NCBI GenBank assembly: GCA_035624455.1
Contig: DASPRM010000028.1
Span: 1 to 58,074, forward strand
Length of the DNA: 58,074 nt
Source: Terriglobales bacterium
GTDB taxonomy: Bacteria; Acidobacteriota; Terriglobia; Terriglobales; Acidobacteriaceae
Reading direction: 5' to 3'
Under the pieces are notes generated by a model, which had not been told where the DNA came from, ran no database searches, and saw only the letters and a program-made list of their open reading frames with translations. Each line of letters starts with the position of its first letter. Positions within the stretch are counted from its first letter, which is position 1. The translations under genes were made by a program, and so were the position numbers. Below are positions 42,424 through 57,103 of this stretch, in pieces.

Positions 42424-44865
42424 TTAGTTCATTCCTGCTTGTGCGCCGGACGGACCGGCTTTGGCGAGGGTGCGCGTGCGCTGGACGTTGTTGGCAATGC
42501 CGGTGTAGAGGGCTTCGGCAATTTTTTCCCGATAGCTATCGGTCATCAGATTGACGGCATCGGTCTTGCTGGTCATGAAGGCTATTTCCGCCAACACGGC
42601 GGGCATCTGTGCTTCGCGCAAAACCACAAAGGGGGCGGTTTTGATGCCGCGGTCACGCATCGGGTTCCCCTTGCGCGAGAGAGCGCGGAGCAGAGACTTC
42701 TGAACATCAGTCGCGAAGCGGCGGGCTGCGGCCTTACTGCTCGAATTGGCCGCGCTCACGCCGGTGGGCAAGGGCGAGACCTTGACGCTTTCCATGGCTT
42801 CAGAAGAAGAGTTGAAGTAGAAGGTCTCGACTCCGTTGACAGTTTTGTATTGGCTGCTGTTGGCGTGAATGGAAATAAAGAAGTCGGCGTGAGCATCGTT
42901 AGCGGTGGCTACACGCGAATCGAGCGCCACAAAGCGATCGTCGGTGCGCGTGTAGATCACCTCAGCGCCCAGTTCCTTCTCCAACAGGTGGCCAAGTTTC
43001 TGGGCTACGTCTAAGGTCAGATCCTTTTCCATCAGCCCAGCGCTGGAAACCGAGCCGGTGTCGTGCCCGCCGTGGCCGGGATCAACCACGATTTTGATGC
43101 GACCGGGATGTTCCGCCGGATCGGAAATGGACTGCGCAGAAGCTTGCCATTGCGCCACTTCCTGGGCGGGCGAAGTTACCTGCGCCGGCGTCTTCCTGGA
43201 GTGTGCTTCTTTCTCAAAAAATTCGATGATCAGACGAGGGGGATTGTCGGCCAGCGATGCAGTGTAAGAGCCAGCAACCTTCAAATCAAAGACAATGCGG
43301 GTCATGCCGGGCTTGTATTCGCCCATGCGAATGCTGCGGATTAGGCTGTCGTCCACCGCGAACTGTTTTTCATGCACGTCCAGAAGCCGGGTGTCCAGAT
43401 CGAAATAGACTCTCTCCGGGTCGTGAACCCGGTTGGACGAATACTTGATGGATTTTTCCAGCTGGATCGTCATCCGCGAATAGCCCGGCCCGGCCCAGTA
43501 TTGCACATGCTCGAGCAGTTGCCGGCTGTCCTTGGCGGTGAGCTCCTCAGGATTGAGCGCGGCCGCGGTTTGCATAGGCCTGGGCGCGGCGGCGTCGGGC
43601 TTGGCACCTTCAGCTTCGGTCTTGGTGCTCGCATTGACAGTCGGCTTCTTTGCGTGCAGAGCGAAATGCGATTGCATCCAGTCGACCATCGGCAAGCGCC
43701 ACATCCAGGCGCCAGCAAACATCACCGCCACCAGAGCGCTCAGCAGAAACGCCAGGCCGCCTAGTTGGCGGTCGCTGGCATCCGGGAGCGGCTTGGGTGT
43801 CCAGTAGGGAACTGGAGCTGTGGCAGGCTCGGCTTCTCCTACGGTATGGGCATGGCGCACCACGCAGCTAACGTCATCCAGGTCCTCTTGCCAATTTGCC
43901 TGGGGTTCAGGATCGGAAAGGATTTCCTCCGCGTGCTCGAGAATGGGCGATGCCGCAGCAGACGCAGGCGGTGACGGCGGTTTCTCCGCTGGCTCCGGCA
44001 TCTCTACTCTTGCCAGCGACTCCAGTGGCGAGCGGCCATCTTCCAGCGTCCCGGCCACGGGCTTGTTGATGAATACTCCGCTGGTAATTGGGGGCGCGGT
44101 GTTGGGTGGCAGCTCCAATACCGGCCCAAGGTCGAGTTCTGACGTCTTGAGGCTCTGCGGGACGTGAACAAACGCAGCTTTGGGGTCGGCTGCAGTGGCG
44201 GAGGGGCCGTGAGAAAGTGCGAAATCTGTGTCTTCGGGATTCTGATTCAGCGCGTCGATAACCAGCGCTTCGGCAAAGCGCAGGGCCCGCACGTCGCGAT
44301 ATTGGAACTGATAGGCTCTCTCGGAAAAAACACCCAGCAGGCCCATCAACTCCGACCGCCAGCGCAGCGGGTAGTACACCATGGATCCAATGCCCAGCTT
44401 GCGGGCACTGACGGGGTCGACGCGAGTGTCGGTGGATGTGTTTACACAGATCCGAGGCTCGCCTGAACGTGCACATTCGCCGGCAAGGCCACGAGTTGCA
44501 TCGAGGTAGGAGCCAACCTCGGGCGCATGCGAACCGCTGCGCGCAATGCAGATCATGGAATCGGTGCGGCCGAGCGCGATTGCGGCACCGGAGGCTCCAG
44601 TTAAATTCTGAACGCTGGCGGCGATACGGTGCAGCACGCTCTCAATGTCGCCGTGGACGATGGGCGGAACGGGAAGCAACTGGGCGGCGCGGAGAGGAGC
44701 ATCAGTCCGCCGTTGCGGAACAATGCGAAGCTCTTCTTGTTGAATGGTATAAGCGAAGGCGAGAAGGACCTGCAGGGCGTCCCAGTCGGGAGCTGGGGCG
44801 CCGGAGGCGCGCACACGTATGCGGTGCAGGCCGCGACTACTGCTCGGCTTGTCATTCGATATCAA
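42424..44865 (-). CDS. GAF - membrane - AMIN - N-acetylmuramoyl-L-alanine amidase
   Basis: The 813-residue product starts at TTG 44865; this start is uncertain since no ribosome-binding site is seen. Residues 70-210 form a GAF sensor domain (VLHRIAASVQNLTGASGAAI, GLAGECARSGEPRICVNTS), about 210-360 is a disordered Pro/Glu-rich linker, and one membrane helix follows (GGLAFLLSALVAVMFAGAW). Beyond it an AMIN domain (VQYWAGPGYSRMTIQLEKSI) and the zinc amidase_3 domain (VVDPGHGGHDTGS with zinc His; SIHANSS; AEIAFMTSKTDA with the catalytic Glu) lie outside. It cleaves peptidoglycan side chains in cell division. A GAF domain facing the cytoplasm on a cell wall amidase is unusual. Confidence 0.9.
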   Translation of the reverse strand: MISNDKPSSSRGLHRIRVRASGAPAPDWDALQVLLAFAYTIQQEELRIVPQRRTDAPLRAAQLLPVPPIVHGDIESVLHRIAASVQNLTGASGAAIALGRTDSMICIARSGSHAPEVGSYLDATRGLAGECARSGEPRICVNTSTDTRVDPVSARKLGIGSMVYYPLRWRSELMGLLGVFSERAYQFQYRDVRALRFAEALVIDALNQNPEDTDFALSHGPSATAADPKAAFVHVPQSLKTSELDLGPVLELPPNTAPPITSGVFINKPVAGTLEDGRSPLESLARVEMPEPAEKPPSPPASAAASPILEHAEEILSDPEPQANWQEDLDDVSCVVRHAHTVGEAEPATAPVPYWTPKPLPDASDRQLGGLAFLLSALVAVMFAGAWMWRLPMVDWMQSHFALHAKKPTVNASTKTEAEGAKPDAAAPRPMQTAAALNPEELTAKDSRQLLEHVQYWAGPGYSRMTIQLEKSIKYSSNRVHDPERVYFDLDTRLLDVHEKQFAVDDSLIRSIRMGEYKPGMTRIVFDLKVAGSYTASLADNPPRLIIEFFEKEAHSRKTPAQVTSPAQEVAQWQASAQSISDPAEHPGRIKIVVDPGHGGHDTGSVSSAGLMEKDLTLDVAQKLGHLLEKELGAEVIYTRTDDRFVALDSRVATANDAHADFFISIHANSSQYKTVNGVETFYFNSSSEAMESVKVSPLPTGVSAANSSSKAAARRFATDVQKSLLRALSRKGNPMRDRGIKTAPFVVLREAQMPAVLAEIAFMTSKTDAVNLMTDSYREKIAEALYTGIANNVQRTRTLAKAGPSGAQAGMN

Positions 44866-45089: not shown

Positions 45090-45380
45090 ATGAAGACTGT
45101 GTATGAGGCCTTGCGCGAGGTCCTGCGGATCAAGGAGTTGGAAATTAAGCGCCTGGAGAAGGAAATTGAGGCGCTGCGTGTAGTACTGCCCATCGTGGCC
45201 GACATCAAACAGCCGCTTGATGAGGAGGCCTTCCGCAATCCATCCAACGGCCAACCGGTGCTCGATCCCAGCAAGCCTTTTAACCCCGCGGACTTAAACA
45301 CCGTCTTCGCACAAGCTTCGGGAGGTTCGAATCCAGGTTCGCAAATCGCTCCCGAGAAGAAGCGCTCCAGCTGGCCATAA
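45090..45380 (+). CDS. Small coiled-coil protein, 96 aa
   Basis: ATG 45090, seven bases after AAAGAGG, opens a 96-residue soluble protein. Residues 1-35 form a short charged coiled coil (YEALREVLRIKELEIKRLEK), and the remainder is a Pro/Asn/Ser-rich loose tail. It is divergent from the amidase gene. No family is recognised. Confidence 0.6.
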   Translation: MKTVYEALREVLRIKELEIKRLEKEIEALRVVLPIVADIKQPLDEEAFRNPSNGQPVLDPSKPFNPADLNTVFAQASGGSNPGSQIAPEKKRSSWP

Positions 45381-45434: not shown

Positions 45435-45459
45435 CCTTCCGCCCGCGCTTGGCGGAAGG
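45435..45459 (+). terminator. Hairpin after the coiled-coil gene
   Basis: CCTTCCGCC (45435-45443) and GGCGGAAGG (45451-45459) form a perfect nine-base stem with a seven-base loop, 55 bases after the stop codon. There is no T-run. The surrounding GTGGCCCACCC...GGTGG is typical of acidobacterial dispersed hairpins. Confidence 0.45.
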
Positions 45460-45598
45460 TGGAGAATTGCGATCTTCTCCCTCCTGCGCTCTCTACAGGT
45501 CGCTGCCGCGGAGTCTCTTCCTACGATTAACGCCGGCTTCCGCTAGTTTACTTAGGTGTTACGTCAGTAATTTGGCGTACGGTGACCTCCGTTCTACG

Positions 45599-46597
45599 AT
45601 GGTTGCGATAATGGGCCACCGTCACGAAGAACGCACACCGCTGCGTCTGACCACCCTTGTCTGGGGTATCGATGGGGATGGTCACGTCTTTATGGAGCAG
45701 GTGCAGACGCTGGACATCTCTTCCCGAGGCGCCCGTCTAAGAGGGCTGCAACATCCGGTTACGGTGGGCGCCATTCTGGGAGTGCAGAACGGTGATAACC
45801 AAGGCCGGTTTCGCGTGGTCTGGATCGGTGAGCCTGGAACGGCCCGCGAGGGCCAGATTGGACTGCATTGCATTCAGATTGGCCGCAGCATCAAGAAATC
45901 ATTGCTCTACATCGATGACCAGGAGCATGAACTGGAACGCCGGCGCTCGCTGCTGGAAGCGTTTGGGTATCGCGTTCATACGACGCCGCGCGGGCAGCAA
46001 GGGCTGGAGGTCCTGGAATCGATTCCCATCGACGCTGCCATTATCGATCACCCGGTATTGGATCTCGATGTTGTAACCGTGATCGAGCGAATTAAGGCGC
46101 TGCAGCCGCAGGCGCGAGTCATTGTGCTGTCGGCATTTCCGGCGACGGTTCCAGAGCGGGCACTGGAACTTGCGGACGCTTTCGTCCACAAAGGAGAGAA
46201 CCACAACCGCCTGACCACTACGATTGAGCAGCTGGTTGGCCCGGGTAACAACCTGAAGTGGCCAATCACGCGTTGCCTGCAGCGCTATGCGATCTCGGTG
46301 CCAATTCTGGTGAATGTTCTTCGCTCGGGCGTTAACACGATCATGCGTGGGCGTTCCACTGACTTAAGCGAGGGTGGAGGTGCGGTCGAGATTGATGCCG
46401 GGGAACTGATACCGGGAGAGATCATCTCAGTGGAGTTTTCACTTCCCACCGCCAAAAAGCCGCTGCGCATGTACTGCACCGTGCGTCACCGGAAAGAGAA
46501 CCGCTACGGCGTAGAATTCGTGACGATCACGCCGGAACAGCGCCAAGCCATCGCGCAGCTATGTGAGGTGCTGGTGCCGATGGATCAGCCACAGTAA
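45599..46597 (+). CDS. PilZ - receiver - PilZ protein
   Basis: The frame begins at 45449, but the domain content starts at ATG 45599 (332 residues; ATG 45611 is also possible). The first PilZ domain (about 5-95) has RHEER and DISSRG. A receiver-like domain (about 98-215) has the acidic pair in LLYIDDQE, a likely phosphorylated Asp in AAIIDHPVLD and the conserved Lys in AFVHKGEN. The last PilZ domain (about 220-325) has RCLQR and DLSEGG. Both PilZ domains keep the binding signature. It would join phosphorylation and cyclic di-GMP in one molecule. No histidine kinase is adjacent. Confidence 0.85.
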   Translation: MVAIMGHRHEERTPLRLTTLVWGIDGDGHVFMEQVQTLDISSRGARLRGLQHPVTVGAILGVQNGDNQGRFRVVWIGEPGTAREGQIGLHCIQIGRSIKKSLLYIDDQEHELERRRSLLEAFGYRVHTTPRGQQGLEVLESIPIDAAIIDHPVLDLDVVTVIERIKALQPQARVIVLSAFPATVPERALELADAFVHKGENHNRLTTTIEQLVGPGNNLKWPITRCLQRYAISVPILVNVLRSGVNTIMRGRSTDLSEGGGAVEIDAGELIPGEIISVEFSLPTAKKPLRMYCTVRHRKENRYGVEFVTITPEQRQAIAQLCEVLVPMDQPQ

Positions 46598-51230: not shown

Positions 51231-53504
51231 TCATCTTGACTGAGGCAGGCGGATAGGCAAGTTCTGCTTCTGCGTTTGCTCGTCCTGGATGTGTACAGTG
51301 GTGGTGGCCCGAGCCGTGCTGGCGGCGCTCACGGTAACGCTTTGCGTGATCGAGCCGGGCGCGCCGAATTCATTGATGACCTGCTCGGTCACCGAAAACG
51401 TTCCTGAAGTGGGGAACGTGTGAACCACGCCAGGGACGAATGCGGGCGAGTTGCCATCTGAGAACGTCCAGCGATAAGCATTGACGAAACGATTGGGAGC
51501 TTGCCAGTTCGCGCCGCACAGCAGCACGGTATTGGCCCCGACCTGCGGCAGCGGTGTTACCTGGATTGCAGGCACAGGCGCAGGATCTCCTGGCTCGGCG
51601 CTAGCGTCGGCCGCATTCGAAGCTGTGGCGCCCGTCGCGTCAACCGCCTGTATTTCAACATGCTGGTTGCCAGAGTAGATCTTTAGCGGCGTATTCAGTA
51701 CGTCCATGTCGCTGGCATAGATCTGCGTGCCGGAGACCAGGACATTCATTTGCTTGATGGGGTTTGCCATATCGGCCGATCCCACGAAATTGGGAGTGGG
51801 CCAGTTCACAACACTTCCGGAAGTGGGGGAGAAGATCGTTACTCCAGCCGCGGTGCCTTTGGCGGAAACGCGTTGAATGGCTACCGAGGATGCTCCAGCG
51901 TTATCGACGACAGTGGCAGTGATGTCGTAAGTGCCCACGCTCTGGTAGGTATGGGTCGCGCTAGGACCCGCGGCTGCAGCGGTGCCATCTCCGAAATCGA
52001 TCGTGGAGCTTGCGAGTGAGCCGTCAGGATCGGTGGATCCGGCAGTTGAGACCGTGATGGTGAGCGGCTGCGGCTGCGAGACCGCGATGTTAACCACCGG
52101 CGGCTGATCACCGGCGCGGAACGCGATTGCGGGCGACATTTTGTTCTGAATACTTGGACGGCCTACAGCCTTTATGAACAACGTCGTGGATGTAAGGTTG
52201 AAAGAACTGAGGTCGAGCGAGTGCGTGCCGACCGGTACATCCGCGAGCTTGGCGAGGTTCTGCCCGTCGGCACTGGAAAAGACAGTGTAGTGATCGATGG
52301 TGCTTTCAGGCCCGCCGCCAACACTCCAGCTGAGTTGATTTCCGGAGATGCTGGGCTGAAGGAAGACACAATTATCAATGCCGGTCTCGATGGCTGTGCC
52401 TTCGTCATAGTCATTCCAGGTCACGATCTGAAGCGCTGGCAACTGCGAACTGCTGGAATAGAACTTCCCAATCTCGCCGAAGGTGTCGAGCCAGGTCTGG
52501 CCGCAGCGCGAATGCACGAATCGGTCGATTCCCCAGGGAGCCAGCGAGTCGTTAAAGCCTCGATAGACGGAACCAACCACGAAGCGGCCGGCTGCACTTG
52601 TCTTATAGAAGGCGTCCTGCGCCCCGAGCGCGGGATCGAATGGGTTGGGTGATGCGGGATGGAACGGGTCGGCGTTGGTATCTTCCCATTGAAATGCGCC
52701 GTCGCTGATGGGCCGAGTGAGGCCATCAACGCCGCGAAACAGCAACATGGGGTCATTGGCGACCTTGGAGCGAACCTGATTCCAATCGACGTAGTAGGCG
52801 TCTACGCCAAACATGAAGATCACTGGGCGGCCGTTGACGCGCAGATATGCCGAGGAAGGGACAAACTGCGTATTGATGTAATTCAGATCGTCGAGAAGCT
52901 GAGCCGTGACATCGCAGCCATTGGCCTTGGCGGCATCGAACAGGGCGCCGGCATCTTCCGTGACGGCGAACTGGAATCCGGAATGCGCTTCGGCTTCGGT
53001 GCGCAGAGCCATAGCGGTACCGTTGACGACGCTCTCATTGGGACCGAACCAATCGAGGATGGCGCCCTGGATCCCGCGACTTACCATGTCTTCGACCTGC
53101 CGGTGCACCTGGGCCTGATCGTTGGACTTATAGCCAACATCCATGTGTCCGGATTCGCCGAACCAACCCAACAGGTGTGCGTAGATCTGGGTGGTTGATC
53201 CGCTGTAGAGCAGCGAGTGCGAGTCCACTTTGCTGACGTTGGTGGGCTTCGGCAGTCCGTTTAGCGGCGGGGCAAATGTATCGCTGGCGCTGGAGTTGTT
53301 GGCGGTTTCTGCCTGCAAAGTTGTGGTAGAGGCCGGACCGCTTGCGGGCGGTGGATTCGATGGGGTCGAGGGGCCAGCATTGTCGGCGGGCTCTAGCGTT
53401 CCGTGACTACTGCCGCAGGCGGTGAGAAGGGCGAGAAATATTAACAGCAGGAGCAAATATAAGAGCACGAGCAGACAGCGTACGTAGTCGCGAGTCAGGC
53501 GCAA
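51231..53504 (-). CDS. GH71/GH99-like lipoprotein with PKD domains
   Basis: The 757-residue product is a lipoprotein (lipobox LLTAC, Cys31) with a Ser/Pro-rich linker (about 35-95). Residues 100-390 form a barrel with AILDWFGPNESVVNGTA, NGRPVIFMFG and ALQIVTWNDYDEGTAIETG, as in the catalytic domains of glycoside-hydrolase families 71 and 99 (alpha-glucanase, endo-alpha-mannosidase types). Then come a fibronectin-like segment, a PKD domain (STDPDGSLASSTIDFGDGTA), an Ig-like domain and a second PKD-like domain (AYRWTFSDGNSPAF). It probably digests a polysaccharide at the outer surface. The substrate is uncertain. Confidence 0.72.
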   Translation of the reverse strand: MRLTRDYVRCLLVLLYLLLLLIFLALLTACGSSHGTLEPADNAGPSTPSNPPPASGPASTTTLQAETANNSSASDTFAPPLNGLPKPTNVSKVDSHSLLYSGSTTQIYAHLLGWFGESGHMDVGYKSNDQAQVHRQVEDMVSRGIQGAILDWFGPNESVVNGTAMALRTEAEAHSGFQFAVTEDAGALFDAAKANGCDVTAQLLDDLNYINTQFVPSSAYLRVNGRPVIFMFGVDAYYVDWNQVRSKVANDPMLLFRGVDGLTRPISDGAFQWEDTNADPFHPASPNPFDPALGAQDAFYKTSAAGRFVVGSVYRGFNDSLAPWGIDRFVHSRCGQTWLDTFGEIGKFYSSSSQLPALQIVTWNDYDEGTAIETGIDNCVFLQPSISGNQLSWSVGGGPESTIDHYTVFSSADGQNLAKLADVPVGTHSLDLSSFNLTSTTLFIKAVGRPSIQNKMSPAIAFRAGDQPPVVNIAVSQPQPLTITVSTAGSTDPDGSLASSTIDFGDGTAAAAGPSATHTYQSVGTYDITATVVDNAGASSVAIQRVSAKGTAAGVTIFSPTSGSVVNWPTPNFVGSADMANPIKQMNVLVSGTQIYASDMDVLNTPLKIYSGNQHVEIQAVDATGATASNAADASAEPGDPAPVPAIQVTPLPQVGANTVLLCGANWQAPNRFVNAYRWTFSDGNSPAFVPGVVHTFPTSGTFSVTEQVINEFGAPGSITQSVTVSAASTARATTTVHIQDEQTQKQNLPIRLPQSR

Positions 53505-53794: not shown

Positions 53795-56068
53795 TTAGGG
53801 GGTTTTGTACAGCTTGCGGTAGACGGTTACGTTGCGCAGGATGGCTTGCACGTATTCGCGGGTTTCGGTGAAGGGAATGGACTCGACGAACTCCTGCGGG
53901 TCGCGATAGTGGCCGTCGGCGAGCCAGGATTCTACGCGATCGGTGCCTGCGTTATAAGCGGCGAGAGCGTACTCGAGGCGGCCTCCGAATTTATCCACCA
54001 GGTCTTTGAAGTAGCGCGTGCCCATCTGCAGGTTGGTTTGTGGCACCAGCAATTGTTCCGCGCGAAAATGCCGAATCTTCATCGACCTCGCCATGCTACG
54101 CCCGGTTCCCGGCAACAATTGCATCAGGCCGATAGCGTTGGCGTGTGAGACTGCGCCAGGATTGAATTCCGATTCCTGCCTGACGAGCGAAGCTACCAAA
54201 AAGGGATCGAGGCCGTTTTGCACCGAATAGCGCTTCAGGTCGGTCCAGTAAGGACGTGGAAACAAGATCTCCCAGTAGGGCCGCGGCAGCTGGTCAAATT
54301 GCATGGCGAAATAAGTGGGGATCTGCCGCTTCATATAATTGAGTGAGCGATGGTAAGCTCCGCTGTCCTGATAGATCTCGGCGATCTTACCAATCGCCCA
54401 GGTCTGGCCGCCGCTAGCGGCTGCCTGCAATTCGCGAACGGCGAAGTCCACCATGCCGCCATTCTCCAGCAACTTGGCTTTCTCGACGCGGAGATCGTCG
54501 GCCGGTGGCGAATCGAAATAGTTCGTGCTCACCCGCAGCGGGGGGATCTGGACGAGGGTGACATCGGGGGTGGGATCACCATCACCGAGAATGCGCAGGC
54601 GATCGCGCGAGCAGTCGGCGTAATAGTAGTTGGGAAAGCGCTCTACCAGCTTGGCGTAGTAAGCGCGGGCTACGGGTGCGTTCTGTTGCTCCTCCGCCAT
54701 ACGAGCGCGCCAGTAGAGAGCGGCGGGTACCTCGGCGGAGTCCGGGTAGTTGGCAAGCTGCTGCTCGAAGGCATGGCTGGCTTCATCATTCCGTCCCTGG
54801 CGAAGATTCAGCCAGGCGGATTTCCAGTGGGCGTAATGCGCGACCTTGCCCTTAGGGAAGCGCTCATCCAGTTCGCGGTAATAGTCGATGGCGTGGTCGT
54901 AATCACGTTTCAGGAGAAACATGTTGCCGGCGGTCAGCAGAGCTTGTTCCAGCCACGGACTCGTGGGCCCTGCCTGCCGCAGTTGACCGAGGTATTGCAG
55001 GAATCCATCATCGTCTCCAGAGTTGTGGGCGATATCGCCGATCAAGTACAGGCGTTGAGCATTCCATTCGCCCGGCGGAAGATTCAAGCTCTCCAGATAC
55101 GAGCGAGCCTGCTGAGTATCGATATGGCGCAATACTGATCCCAGCGCTACCTGGGTAGCATATTGCAAATCGGGAGTAGTGGCGTCGGACTGCAGGCTGC
55201 GATATTCGGCGGCTGCGTCGCGATAGCGCTTTCCCTGGGCGAGCAGATCTGCTCGCGTCTTGCGGTCTGCGATGCTGGCGGCGGGAGCAGCGGAAGATTG
55301 CAACTCAGTTCCGGCCGCGTCCGCTTCTGCTGCTATGGGCATGGTGTAGTAAACCAGGCGCAGCGATTCCCATCCCTTTTCTGGATTCCCGGCCTTGAGG
55401 TATGCGCGACCCAGAGCCAGTTCGACGTCGGCGCGCGGCGGAGAGCGGTGTTGCAGAAGGACTGCCACCGCTTCGTCCGGGCGTTGCTCGACCACAAGCG
55501 CACTGGAGTAGATCACAGAAGCGTCGCGGGAAAAGATGGAGTTGGGATATTTCTGATCAAAATCCTGCAGTGACGAGATGACGCCGGTAGCATCACCCTG
55601 CGCGCCCTTTGACATGGCCGTGAAATAGGCTACGTAGTCGGCGAGCTCATCGGCTCGTGGTTGGGACTTTTTGAGGGCGGGAAGGGCCTTGGCATAATCG
55701 CGATCCAGAATATGGGCGTAGCCGAGAACGAGATTGGCCAGCATGCCGGCATCATCGGCGGCGTGGTTTCTGGCGTATGCTTCCACTCCGGCGTAGGCAG
55801 CGGGGCTGCGGTTTTCGAGCAGCTGGCGAGCCATGGGTTTCAGCGAGGCGGAGGCGACAAAGGCTCTGTTAACGCGATGGAGCCTTCTTGCCAGAGCCTG
55901 CTGTTGCTTTTTCTTAGCGGCAGGCGACTGGGATTTGGCGGAATGTGAGCTGGAATGGGTGGACGTTTTGCTTGTTCCGGCGGAAGAGGAGGACTGCTGG
56001 GCGAAACCTCGCGGAGATCCCAGAGATATCAGAAGAATGAATGCAATCAGCAGGGACCGAATACTCAC
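53795..56068 (-). CDS. Soluble lytic murein transglycosylase with TPR domain
   Basis: The 757-residue protein has a signal peptide (ending PRGFAQQSS), a Ser/Lys-rich linker, about 500 residues of helical TPR-like repeats (for example DHAIDYYRELDERFPKGKVA, APVARAYYAKLVERFPNYYY), and a C-terminal lytic transglycosylase domain with the catalytic glutamate in LVRQESEFNPGAVS and motifs AIGLMQLLPGTG and ALAAYNAGTDRVESWL. It cleaves the glycan strand of peptidoglycan, as Slt70 does. It starts nine bases after the GAF gene and is co-transcribed with it. Confidence 0.93.
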   Translation of the reverse strand: MSIRSLLIAFILLISLGSPRGFAQQSSSSAGTSKTSTHSSSHSAKSQSPAAKKKQQQALARRLHRVNRAFVASASLKPMARQLLENRSPAAYAGVEAYARNHAADDAGMLANLVLGYAHILDRDYAKALPALKKSQPRADELADYVAYFTAMSKGAQGDATGVISSLQDFDQKYPNSIFSRDASVIYSSALVVEQRPDEAVAVLLQHRSPPRADVELALGRAYLKAGNPEKGWESLRLVYYTMPIAAEADAAGTELQSSAAPAASIADRKTRADLLAQGKRYRDAAAEYRSLQSDATTPDLQYATQVALGSVLRHIDTQQARSYLESLNLPPGEWNAQRLYLIGDIAHNSGDDDGFLQYLGQLRQAGPTSPWLEQALLTAGNMFLLKRDYDHAIDYYRELDERFPKGKVAHYAHWKSAWLNLRQGRNDEASHAFEQQLANYPDSAEVPAALYWRARMAEEQQNAPVARAYYAKLVERFPNYYYADCSRDRLRILGDGDPTPDVTLVQIPPLRVSTNYFDSPPADDLRVEKAKLLENGGMVDFAVRELQAAASGGQTWAIGKIAEIYQDSGAYHRSLNYMKRQIPTYFAMQFDQLPRPYWEILFPRPYWTDLKRYSVQNGLDPFLVASLVRQESEFNPGAVSHANAIGLMQLLPGTGRSMARSMKIRHFRAEQLLVPQTNLQMGTRYFKDLVDKFGGRLEYALAAYNAGTDRVESWLADGHYRDPQEFVESIPFTETREYVQAILRNVTVYRKLYKTP

Positions 56069-56077
56069 CCCAGTAGT

Positions 56078-57103
56078 TTAGCGCGGAAAACTGTTCCCCA
56101 GCAGTGATGGATCGTTATCAGCCAGGATACGCACTAGTTCTTCATTGAAATAATTTCCAGTCGCGGCAGAGGTATTGCCGTAGCGGCGGTCATAACTGGC
56201 GCGGCTCTTCTCGATGTCGTCTTTCAGGCGATCGTAGAGGTCGCGGTTTTGGCGGCCCTCGTTCACCCTTCCTTGATTGTAGAGCTTGATTTCGTCCACC
56301 AGCAGCTTAGCAAAGCGGCGGGCTTTTTTGTGCACCTCCTCTTCGGAGAGGGGGGCGGCAGCTGGTGCCTGGTTTCCGCCGTCGGAACTTTGCTGAGGCT
56401 GGAAAGTGTCACTCGCCCGCATGGTGCTGGGCTTTTCAGCTGAGGCTTCAGGAAGGGCCGAAGGGGCTTCCGATGTCTCTGTTTGGGAAGCTTCGGCTGC
56501 GGGAGCTGCCTTCCGGGCAGCCGTGATCTCCAGCCACAGCCCGGTTGTACGGACTAGGGCCTCGATTGCAGCGCGGTCCATGAAAGAGTTTCCCTGGGAA
56601 TCCGCGTAAATTAGGGCTACGGGTTTGTCGCGAACGATAAGCGGAACAACCAACGCCTTATCGTCCTCAGGAGACCCGAAGCGGGTAGCAAAATTGAGGT
56701 CGAATTCCGCGGCATCGCCAAATACCGGCGATCGGGATTGAATGGCTCTGCCTGCTAACCCAGTACCCAAGCTCACCGGAACAGTGCGAATTGCGTCATT
56801 GTCGTCCAGGCCGTGAGCTCGCCATCCAATGGCGTTGTTAGCGCGCAGCACCCAAATGGCGCATCGTCCCGAGAAGAGGGAAACACCCCGGATGAGGCAA
56901 TCCAGTATTTCGACCTGGGTATGGGCCTGTTGGACGGCGGCCATCGCGCCGTTAAGGGTTTCGGAATTGCTGGGCTGCTGAGGGGAGGACATCGATTTCA
57001 GAACGCGCTGGACAACCTCTTCGCGGAGGGAGGTGGCATGGGTCTTGAGGACCTCGCCCAGGACGCGCTCGACAATTGGCTGAATTTCCTTAGGATCGGC
57101 CAT
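56078..57103 (-). CDS. GAF-domain protein
   Basis: The 341-residue cytoplasmic protein has an N-terminal helical region (about 1-55), a GAF domain (about 58-190: AHTQVEILDCLIRGVSLFSG, RTVPVSLGTGLAGRAIQSRS, LVVPLIVRDKPVALIYADSQ), a disordered Ala/Ser/Glu-rich linker and a helical C-terminal domain (EEEVHKKARRFAKLLVDEIK). GAF domains bind small ligands or nucleotides. The gene leads into the transglycosylase gene (nine bases apart), suggesting that it controls or monitors cell wall turnover; that is inference. Confidence 0.8.
   Translation of the reverse strand: MADPKEIQPIVERVLGEVLKTHATSLREEVVQRVLKSMSSPQQPSNSETLNGAMAAVQQAHTQVEILDCLIRGVSLFSGRCAIWVLRANNAIGWRAHGLDDNDAIRTVPVSLGTGLAGRAIQSRSPVFGDAAEFDLNFATRFGSPEDDKALVVPLIVRDKPVALIYADSQGNSFMDRAAIEALVRTTGLWLEITAARKAAPAAEASQTETSEAPSALPEASAEKPSTMRASDTFQPQQSSDGGNQAPAAAPLSEEEVHKKARRFAKLLVDEIKLYNQGRVNEGRQNRDLYDRLKDDIEKSRASYDRRYGNTSAATGNYFNEELVRILADNDPSLLGNSFPR

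Follow-up and report, generated by a model that had tools for sequence, protein, structure and literature searches.

Can an enzyme that cuts the cell wall be ruled from the cytoplasm by a domain carried on its own polypeptide chain? This question is raised by a gene on the minus strand of the stretch of DNA analysed here, which comes from a Terriglobales bacterium, is 58,074 nucleotides long and is called the window below. At 42424-44865 the window encodes a single chain of 813 residues, with open reading frame, coordinates and length as an earlier note on this DNA had given them, and the Pfam and hydropathy analyses confirmed the order that the note had read in it: GAF_2, a long linker, one membrane helix, AMIN and Amidase_3. 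The features of the gene are as follows.

42424-44865, minus strand: complete gene for the 813-aa chain, start codon TTG; domains in the order GAF, linker, membrane helix, AMIN, Amidase_3
44731-44790, minus strand: helix-like conserved motif preceding the GAF domain, residues 26-45, from alignment conservation
44275-44649, minus strand: GAF domain, residues 73-197, predicted cytoplasmic (Pfam GAF_2, 48.5 bits against a cut-off of 28.6, E 1.3e-12)
44446-44550, minus strand: conserved GAF cysteines C106, C131 and C140, from the alignment
43765-44229, minus strand: long low-complexity linker, residues 213-367
43708-43764, minus strand: the one membrane helix, residues 368-386 (hydropathy 2.21 on average)
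43255-43506, minus strand: AMIN domain, residues 454-537, predicted periplasmic (Pfam, 41.7 bits against a cut-off of 20.5, E 1.3e-10)
42490-43092, minus strand: Amidase_3 domain, residues 592-792, with zinc/catalytic residues H598, E613, H667 and E760 (Pfam, 183.6 bits against a cut-off of 27, E 4.2e-54)
42733-42813, minus strand: residues 685-711, the place of the blocking and interaction helices in AmiA/B/C-type amidases, here with neither the REN triplet nor the interaction-helix motif

The Pfam GAF model also matches the protein (36.6 bits, cut-off 22.4). A chance or assembly fusion is ruled out, because the full domain order from GAF to amidase recurs in 72 genes, checked by sequence, that belong to 71 of the 300 genomes sampled from the window genome's family, the counts of 71 genomes and 25 genera being lower bounds. 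By its marker genes the window genome is probably acidobacterial: 17 of its proteins match the NCBIfam model acidobact_VWFA above the cut-off, which none of 14 control genomes reached, and a second marker, ADOP, gave 23 matches that all fell below the cut-off. Amidase relatives as such are far more widespread: a first search among 100 relatives gave matches in 98, and a profile built from 16 AMIN-amidase halves matched at least 296 of the 300 genomes. Among the 95 amidase frames that were read, with the GAF domain called by a profile built from 16 of the 72 GAF-carrying frames, 72 carry the GAF and 23 do not; by profile it is absent from the frames L042, L045, L054 and L079. In the amidase tree, all 72 GAF-amidases and four broken or contig-end copies form one clade (SH-like support 0.978), and the support is 0.97 in a tree of 71 distinct sequences calculated without the regulatory segment. 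The four copies belong to the 23 GAF-less frames: L142 and L145, in which the GAF sits in a separate open stretch adjoining the amidase frame, and the contig-end fragments L167 and L168. L142 (G242:C391) is a second GAF-amidase copy with an in-frame stop between the GAF and the helix-AMIN-amidase part. The architecture is thus recurrent within the family, in 72 genes and 25 genera, but none of 14 loci (L172-L185) outside family f1, among the 20 from a class search of 299 genomes, has a GAF by profile; rare cases may exist among the weaker matches of that search. In viral contigs a protein search gave no GAF relatives and a pattern search one match, plasmid records gave 159 with a match and 0 covering 80%, and a contig-wide genome scan matched the amidase half alone, in 24 cyanobacterial records.

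The earlier note had allowed that a downstream start might remove the GAF domain. The first ATG, GTG or TTG of the open frame is TTG 44865, upstream of which no clear ribosome-binding site was found, and its exact position is therefore not proven. The next possible start of the frame lies at residue 18. An ATG or GTG stands one alignment column from the window TTG in 15 of 15 relatives examined, and the BLAST alignment with the syntenic protein of genome G015 takes in the window protein from residue 5 on, before the residue-18 start; a start that removes the GAF is unlikely on both grounds and in view of the selection on that domain. The GAF is under purifying selection and has been retained as a working part, with looser constraint in genus g28. 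Among 16 hand-picked pairs, several of them with dS >1, dN/dS was 0.03-0.33 for the GAF (16 of 16 pairs computable), 0.06-0.17 for the amidase and 0.16-0.43 for the linker (14 of 16 pairs in either case), the pair of the window and genome G117 being computable for the GAF only. Three pairs of genus g28 gave GAF values of 0.24-0.33, exceeding those of the amidase by a factor of two to three. The range of 0.03-0.33 bears out the view that the GAF is a translated and selected part of the chain.

In none of the 72 proteins, three of them truncated on the 5' side by the contig end, was a hydrophobic segment found ahead of the GAF; the window protein has no signal-peptide-like segment for export, unlike the LytM-regulated AmiA/B/C. 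In 67 of the 72, the region from GAF to AMIN contains exactly one hydrophobic segment; four of the remaining five have an added weak segment in the linker, and the segment of L034 falls just below the threshold. Stretches above the hydrophobicity threshold inside some GAF domains (five rows) and amidase domains (seven rows) were taken for core strands. Peptidoglycan, the substrate of the amidase, is extracellular; PilZ is a cytoplasmic c-di-GMP-binding domain, and TonB_C acts in the periplasm. The GAF is therefore likely to be cytoplasmic and the amidase half periplasmic: a signal peptide is missing, the substrate is extracellular, and there are relatives in which PilZ precedes the GAF and TonB_C (L063) or Sel1 (L074, L077) forms the C-terminal end. 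The placement of the GAF inside the cell, as proposed earlier, is favoured by these relatives and by the absence of a preceding hydrophobic segment, but the charges flanking the helix lean the other way: across the 72 genes, the GAF side has K+R 1.8 and D+E 1.3 and the amidase side K+R 2.2 and D+E 0.4, a net charge of +1.8 on the amidase side versus +0.5 on the GAF side, opposite to the positive-inside rule, which was dropped as a proof of topology. The greater frequency of positive charges on the amidase side would suit a reverse topology, with the amidase inside and the GAF outside. However, such a protein would have to export about 370 N-terminal residues with no signal-peptide-like segment and would keep its amidase away from a substrate that lies outside; moreover, several paralogues of the amidase half that carry no GAF (for example, L059, L048, L052 and L042) have a hydrophobic N-terminal segment, and a PilZ-GAF-TonB_C relative exists. 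We regard the reverse orientation as extremely improbable.

Zinc amidases of the Amidase_3 type cleave the MurNAc-L-Ala bond, and the zinc ligands and catalytic glutamate (H598, E613, H667 and E760) are kept in 72 of 72 GAF-amidases. According to PMC10268282, a glutamate of the blocking helix occupies the zinc in AmiA/B/C, this zinc-binding residue being Glu167 in AmiA, and EnvC grips the adjoining interaction helix of AmiB, pulling the blocking helix off the zinc. An interaction-helix motif was composed after the sequences were seen. None of the 72 GAF-type frames contains it, and 19 of the other 23 frames do, all but L142, L145, L167 and L168; it is present in 19 of 19 amidases outside the GAF clade, including the window genome's own paralogue. 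This paralogue, a TPR-AMIN-Amidase_3 protein (L002/L059, G000:C164), is 36% identical to the window protein over query residues 408-557 and 51% over 591-797. It has a TPR_6 match and a hydrophobic N-terminal segment where the window protein has the GAF. Its interaction-helix place is occupied by HELQDLVKKIALKEK, and in the alignment the glutamate of its REN triplet coincides with Glu167 of AmiA (position 134 of the chain, offset 33 from His65); the paralogue thus retains both elements, whereas segment 685-711 of the window protein contains neither. Since the window genome encodes two M23 (LytM-type) proteins, candidate activators for the TPR paralogue exist.

An earlier, stricter cut delimited the regulatory segments of 66 GAF-type and 19 other frames. 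The REN triplet persists in 8 of these 66 GAF-type segments and in L033, and partial autoinhibition may therefore persist there; the GAF-amidases may also contain a diverged interaction helix. The closest solved relatives of the window amidase include 4rn7, 5emi and CwlV 1jwq. Short-loop amidases of the CwlV type have no regulatory insert, but in the window amidase an insert of intermediate length remains. An AlphaFold model of residues 440-813 calculated with 19 cyanobacterial rows had a mean pLDDT of 55, with 130 of 374 residues at >=70 and the AMIN domain at <50; a blocking helix was not modelled in it, which is weak evidence, the insert 687-708 having a pLDDT of <50. With the motif of the LytM-binding helix missing in 72 of 72, the GAF-amidases differ from EnvC-controlled ones more sharply than the earlier note had stated. 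The absence of this motif from the GAF-amidases is a new observation, and we infer that autoinhibition has been lost in this lineage.

The earlier note went on to propose that a small molecule bound by the GAF directly controls the cutting, which would require that the ligand alter the amidase active site through the helix. One chain with one helix and a GAF under purifying selection are what such transmembrane allostery would call for, and another switch would be useful where the LytM switch is no longer recognisable. However, the linkers on both sides of the helix are long and variable in the 67 genes with a single segment (43-244 residues, median 103, from GAF to helix and 40-100 residues from helix to AMIN), and neither HAMP nor another relay domain was found in the Pfam results. 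Direct conformational control is doubtful because of this long and length-variable connection, and we consider it improbable; a linker of 43-244 residues fits a tether.

The GAF itself is of a recognisable type, which was found in 24 other domains among the loci read. Among the amidase GAFs and these others, C140 is found in 72 of 72 and 24 of 24, C131 in 66 of 72 and 21 of 24, and C106 in 50 of 72 and 24 of 24, respectively; the other domains have a further cysteine at position 154 in 22 of 24. The pre-GAF motif L34 L35 A36 F37 is kept in 65-67 of the 72 GAF-amidases, and its columns are gaps in 22-23 of the 24 other domains, which were cut by profile and possibly trimmed there. The conserved cysteines suggest thiol or metal chemistry. 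Solved GAF structures resemble the window GAF in general terms only, NCBIfam gave no match within the GAF region of the window protein, and a weak profile match (E 0.00099) was obtained with YebR 1vhm, a free Met-R-sulfoxide reductase of GAF fold. The single-sequence AlphaFold model of the GAF was unusable (pLDDT 35.5). In the GAF tree, the domains of the window, G117 and G015 form a clade of their own (support 1.0), 69 other amidase GAFs form another (support 0.61), and L039 belongs to neither; GAFs may therefore have been swapped or have diverged beyond resolution.

The same GAF type, followed by a linker and a helix, precedes several other outputs, identified by Pfam as TonB_C (L061, L063 and L072), Sel1 (L066, L074 and L077) and AMIN alone (L065); a second gene of L066 has an untyped end. 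PilZ stands ahead of the GAF in L063 (PilZ-GAF-TonB_C) and in L074 and L077 (PilZ-GAF-Sel1). Three TonB-like GAF genes lie in the window's own genome, two of them recognised by Pfam (L061, L063) and one by eye (L062). GAF or PilZ-GAF proteins with TonB_C or Sel1 ends were noted at L061, L062, L063, L071, L072, L074 and L077, and some genomes have more than one. These proteins share with the window protein the GAF type, the cysteine motif, the linker and usually one helix, and differ from it in the C-terminal output.

A GAF that binds no ligand could serve as an anchor or dimerisation platform, the tethered amidase being constitutive and kept harmless by other means. The merely general similarity of solved GAFs would agree with such a role, as would the several outputs behind one GAF type and the G015 protein, which has no amidase domain. 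Selection on the GAF argues against it, and so does C140, invariant in 72 of 72 and 24 of 24 domains at a position where profile alignments place L, I and I in the three closest solved GAFs; C131 weighs less, the same structures having V in two and C in 3oov. On this evidence a ligand-free platform appears unlikely, though far from negligible. A bolder proposal, which we hold tentatively and consider less likely than not, is a one-chain switch from inside to outside: the cysteine-rich GAF would read a metabolite or the thiol/redox state and license LytM-independent cutting by the tethered amidase, as one member of a modular family whose common GAF-linker-helix unit would drive several periplasmic outputs (amidase, AMIN, TonB_C and Sel1).

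Two genes upstream of the GAF-amidase gene are conserved as its neighbours.

45090-45380, plus strand: divergent gene of 96 aa to which Pfam assigns no domain; its place beside the gene is conserved in G117 and G015
45449-46597, plus strand: response regulator and PilZ protein (PilZ 1.3e-17), conserved neighbour in G117 and G015 (65% and 60% identity)

G117 has a full GAF-amidase, and its locus matches the window in DedA (75%), the PilZ-response regulator (65%), SDR (62%) and inositol-phosphate synthase (87%). G015 has the same neighbours, and its orthologue is a GAF-helix-AMIN protein only, a frame of 522 residues without the amidase domain (L065 1668-3233), which suggests that the front half may act apart from the amidase. 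The SDR gene of G015 begins 37 bases past the stop of this gene; in the window and G117 it lies on the opposite side of the GAF-amidase gene, and the loss of the amidase in G015 was therefore accompanied by a local rearrangement. Another amidase candidate of G015 is a 759-residue frame on C37. At 16 loci of other genera the gene lies elsewhere, with a small membrane-protein gene adjoining in 11, PilZ nearby in several and, within the stretch, lon in 6 and an EngB-like GTPase gene in 7 (both identified by Pfam on L084 alone). A small protein with the pattern RGCWH..MSWP...YQVC..CG.KRLFD is a divergent neighbour in other genera, at L084 8322-8639 and ten other loci; the L084 copy has no Pfam match. 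A common partner gene was not found, the small divergent neighbours of the two locus types being unrelated.

The earlier note saw the same theme, in separate genes, at 53795-57103. These genes, one for a GAF protein (56078-57103) and one for a transglycosylase (53795-56068), are conserved as a pair, standing together on one strand at 22 of the 24 loci read. Inspected by eye, however, the GAF protein lacks the cysteine motif and shows no evident membrane helix, and the pair is therefore a loose analogue. By eye, the transglycosylase has a hydrophobic N-terminus. The C-terminal part of the GAF protein (~200-341) is 51-62% identical in several relatives, much more alike than the rest, and has no Pfam match. 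The window also encodes a PKD-domain protein at 51231-53504, with a weak Glyco_hydro_71 match below the cut-off.

With the GAF predicted inside and part of the safety catch missing, cutting may be controlled from within. Based on these results, we favour, with a probability of roughly 0.55, an amidase that is anchored in the membrane, lacks the LytM switch and has the place or time of its action set by the cytoplasmic GAF. The anchor would lie in the inner membrane; AMIN (wall binding) and Amidase_3 (the putative cutting activity) would face the periplasm, and the GAF half would be cytoplasmic. The interaction helix that LytM factors grip is not recognisable in the lineage, and control has probably moved inside. 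The GAF would sense a small molecule or a change of thiol state, its ligand being hypothetical, and would pair with itself or with an equally hypothetical cytoplasmic partner. Its effect on cutting would then come about by deciding where or when the tethered amidase gathers, not by leverage on the active site across the membrane.

In the open-licence literature we found no paper on a GAF fused to an AMIN/Amidase_3 amidase, the hits for GAF domains with peptidoglycan hydrolases and with TonB being unrelated, as listed, and that for PilZ-GAF-TonB dealing with another protein. Among the matches listed, papers on amidases with cytoplasmic, AMIN or transmembrane-helix parts described no such fusion by title and abstract start, and those on Acidobacteria amidases none on a GAF-amidase by title; the main text of the review PMC6403190 does not contain the term GAF. 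Amidases can lyse cells; in AmiA/B/C a helix keeps the enzyme locked until a LytM activator releases it. The rule of a wall-cutting enzyme from the cytoplasm becomes directly testable here, and the locked-type paralogue kept by the window genome is a natural control for the GAF-amidase. If the module family does serve signalling, several envelope processes of these bacteria may take their input from a single GAF type.

The window protein shares with AmiA, AmiB and AmiC the four zinc/catalytic residues and the order of AMIN and Amidase_3, AMIN being carried by AmiB and AmiC (a point partly covered in PMC10268282). It differs from them in the added GAF and membrane anchor and in the absence of the interaction-helix motif and the blocking-helix REN. 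A second arrangement is found in family f7 of the class, where L177, L178, L181, L182 and L183 combine an N-terminal ATPase-type module, a hydrophobic stretch recognised by eye and an AMIN-amidase in one frame. There, AAA_22 (typed by Pfam on L177 only), a module that we take to be ExeA-like, stands in the place of the GAF, and the LytM-type regulatory segment is kept. The control of AmiA/B by FtsEX-EnvC, as described in PMC10268282, has the same purpose as that proposed here, namely that a cytoplasmic state governs periplasmic cutting; FtsEX-EnvC achieves it with several proteins and a LytM activator, whereas the window protein would do so with one chain that has no recognisable activator-binding helix.
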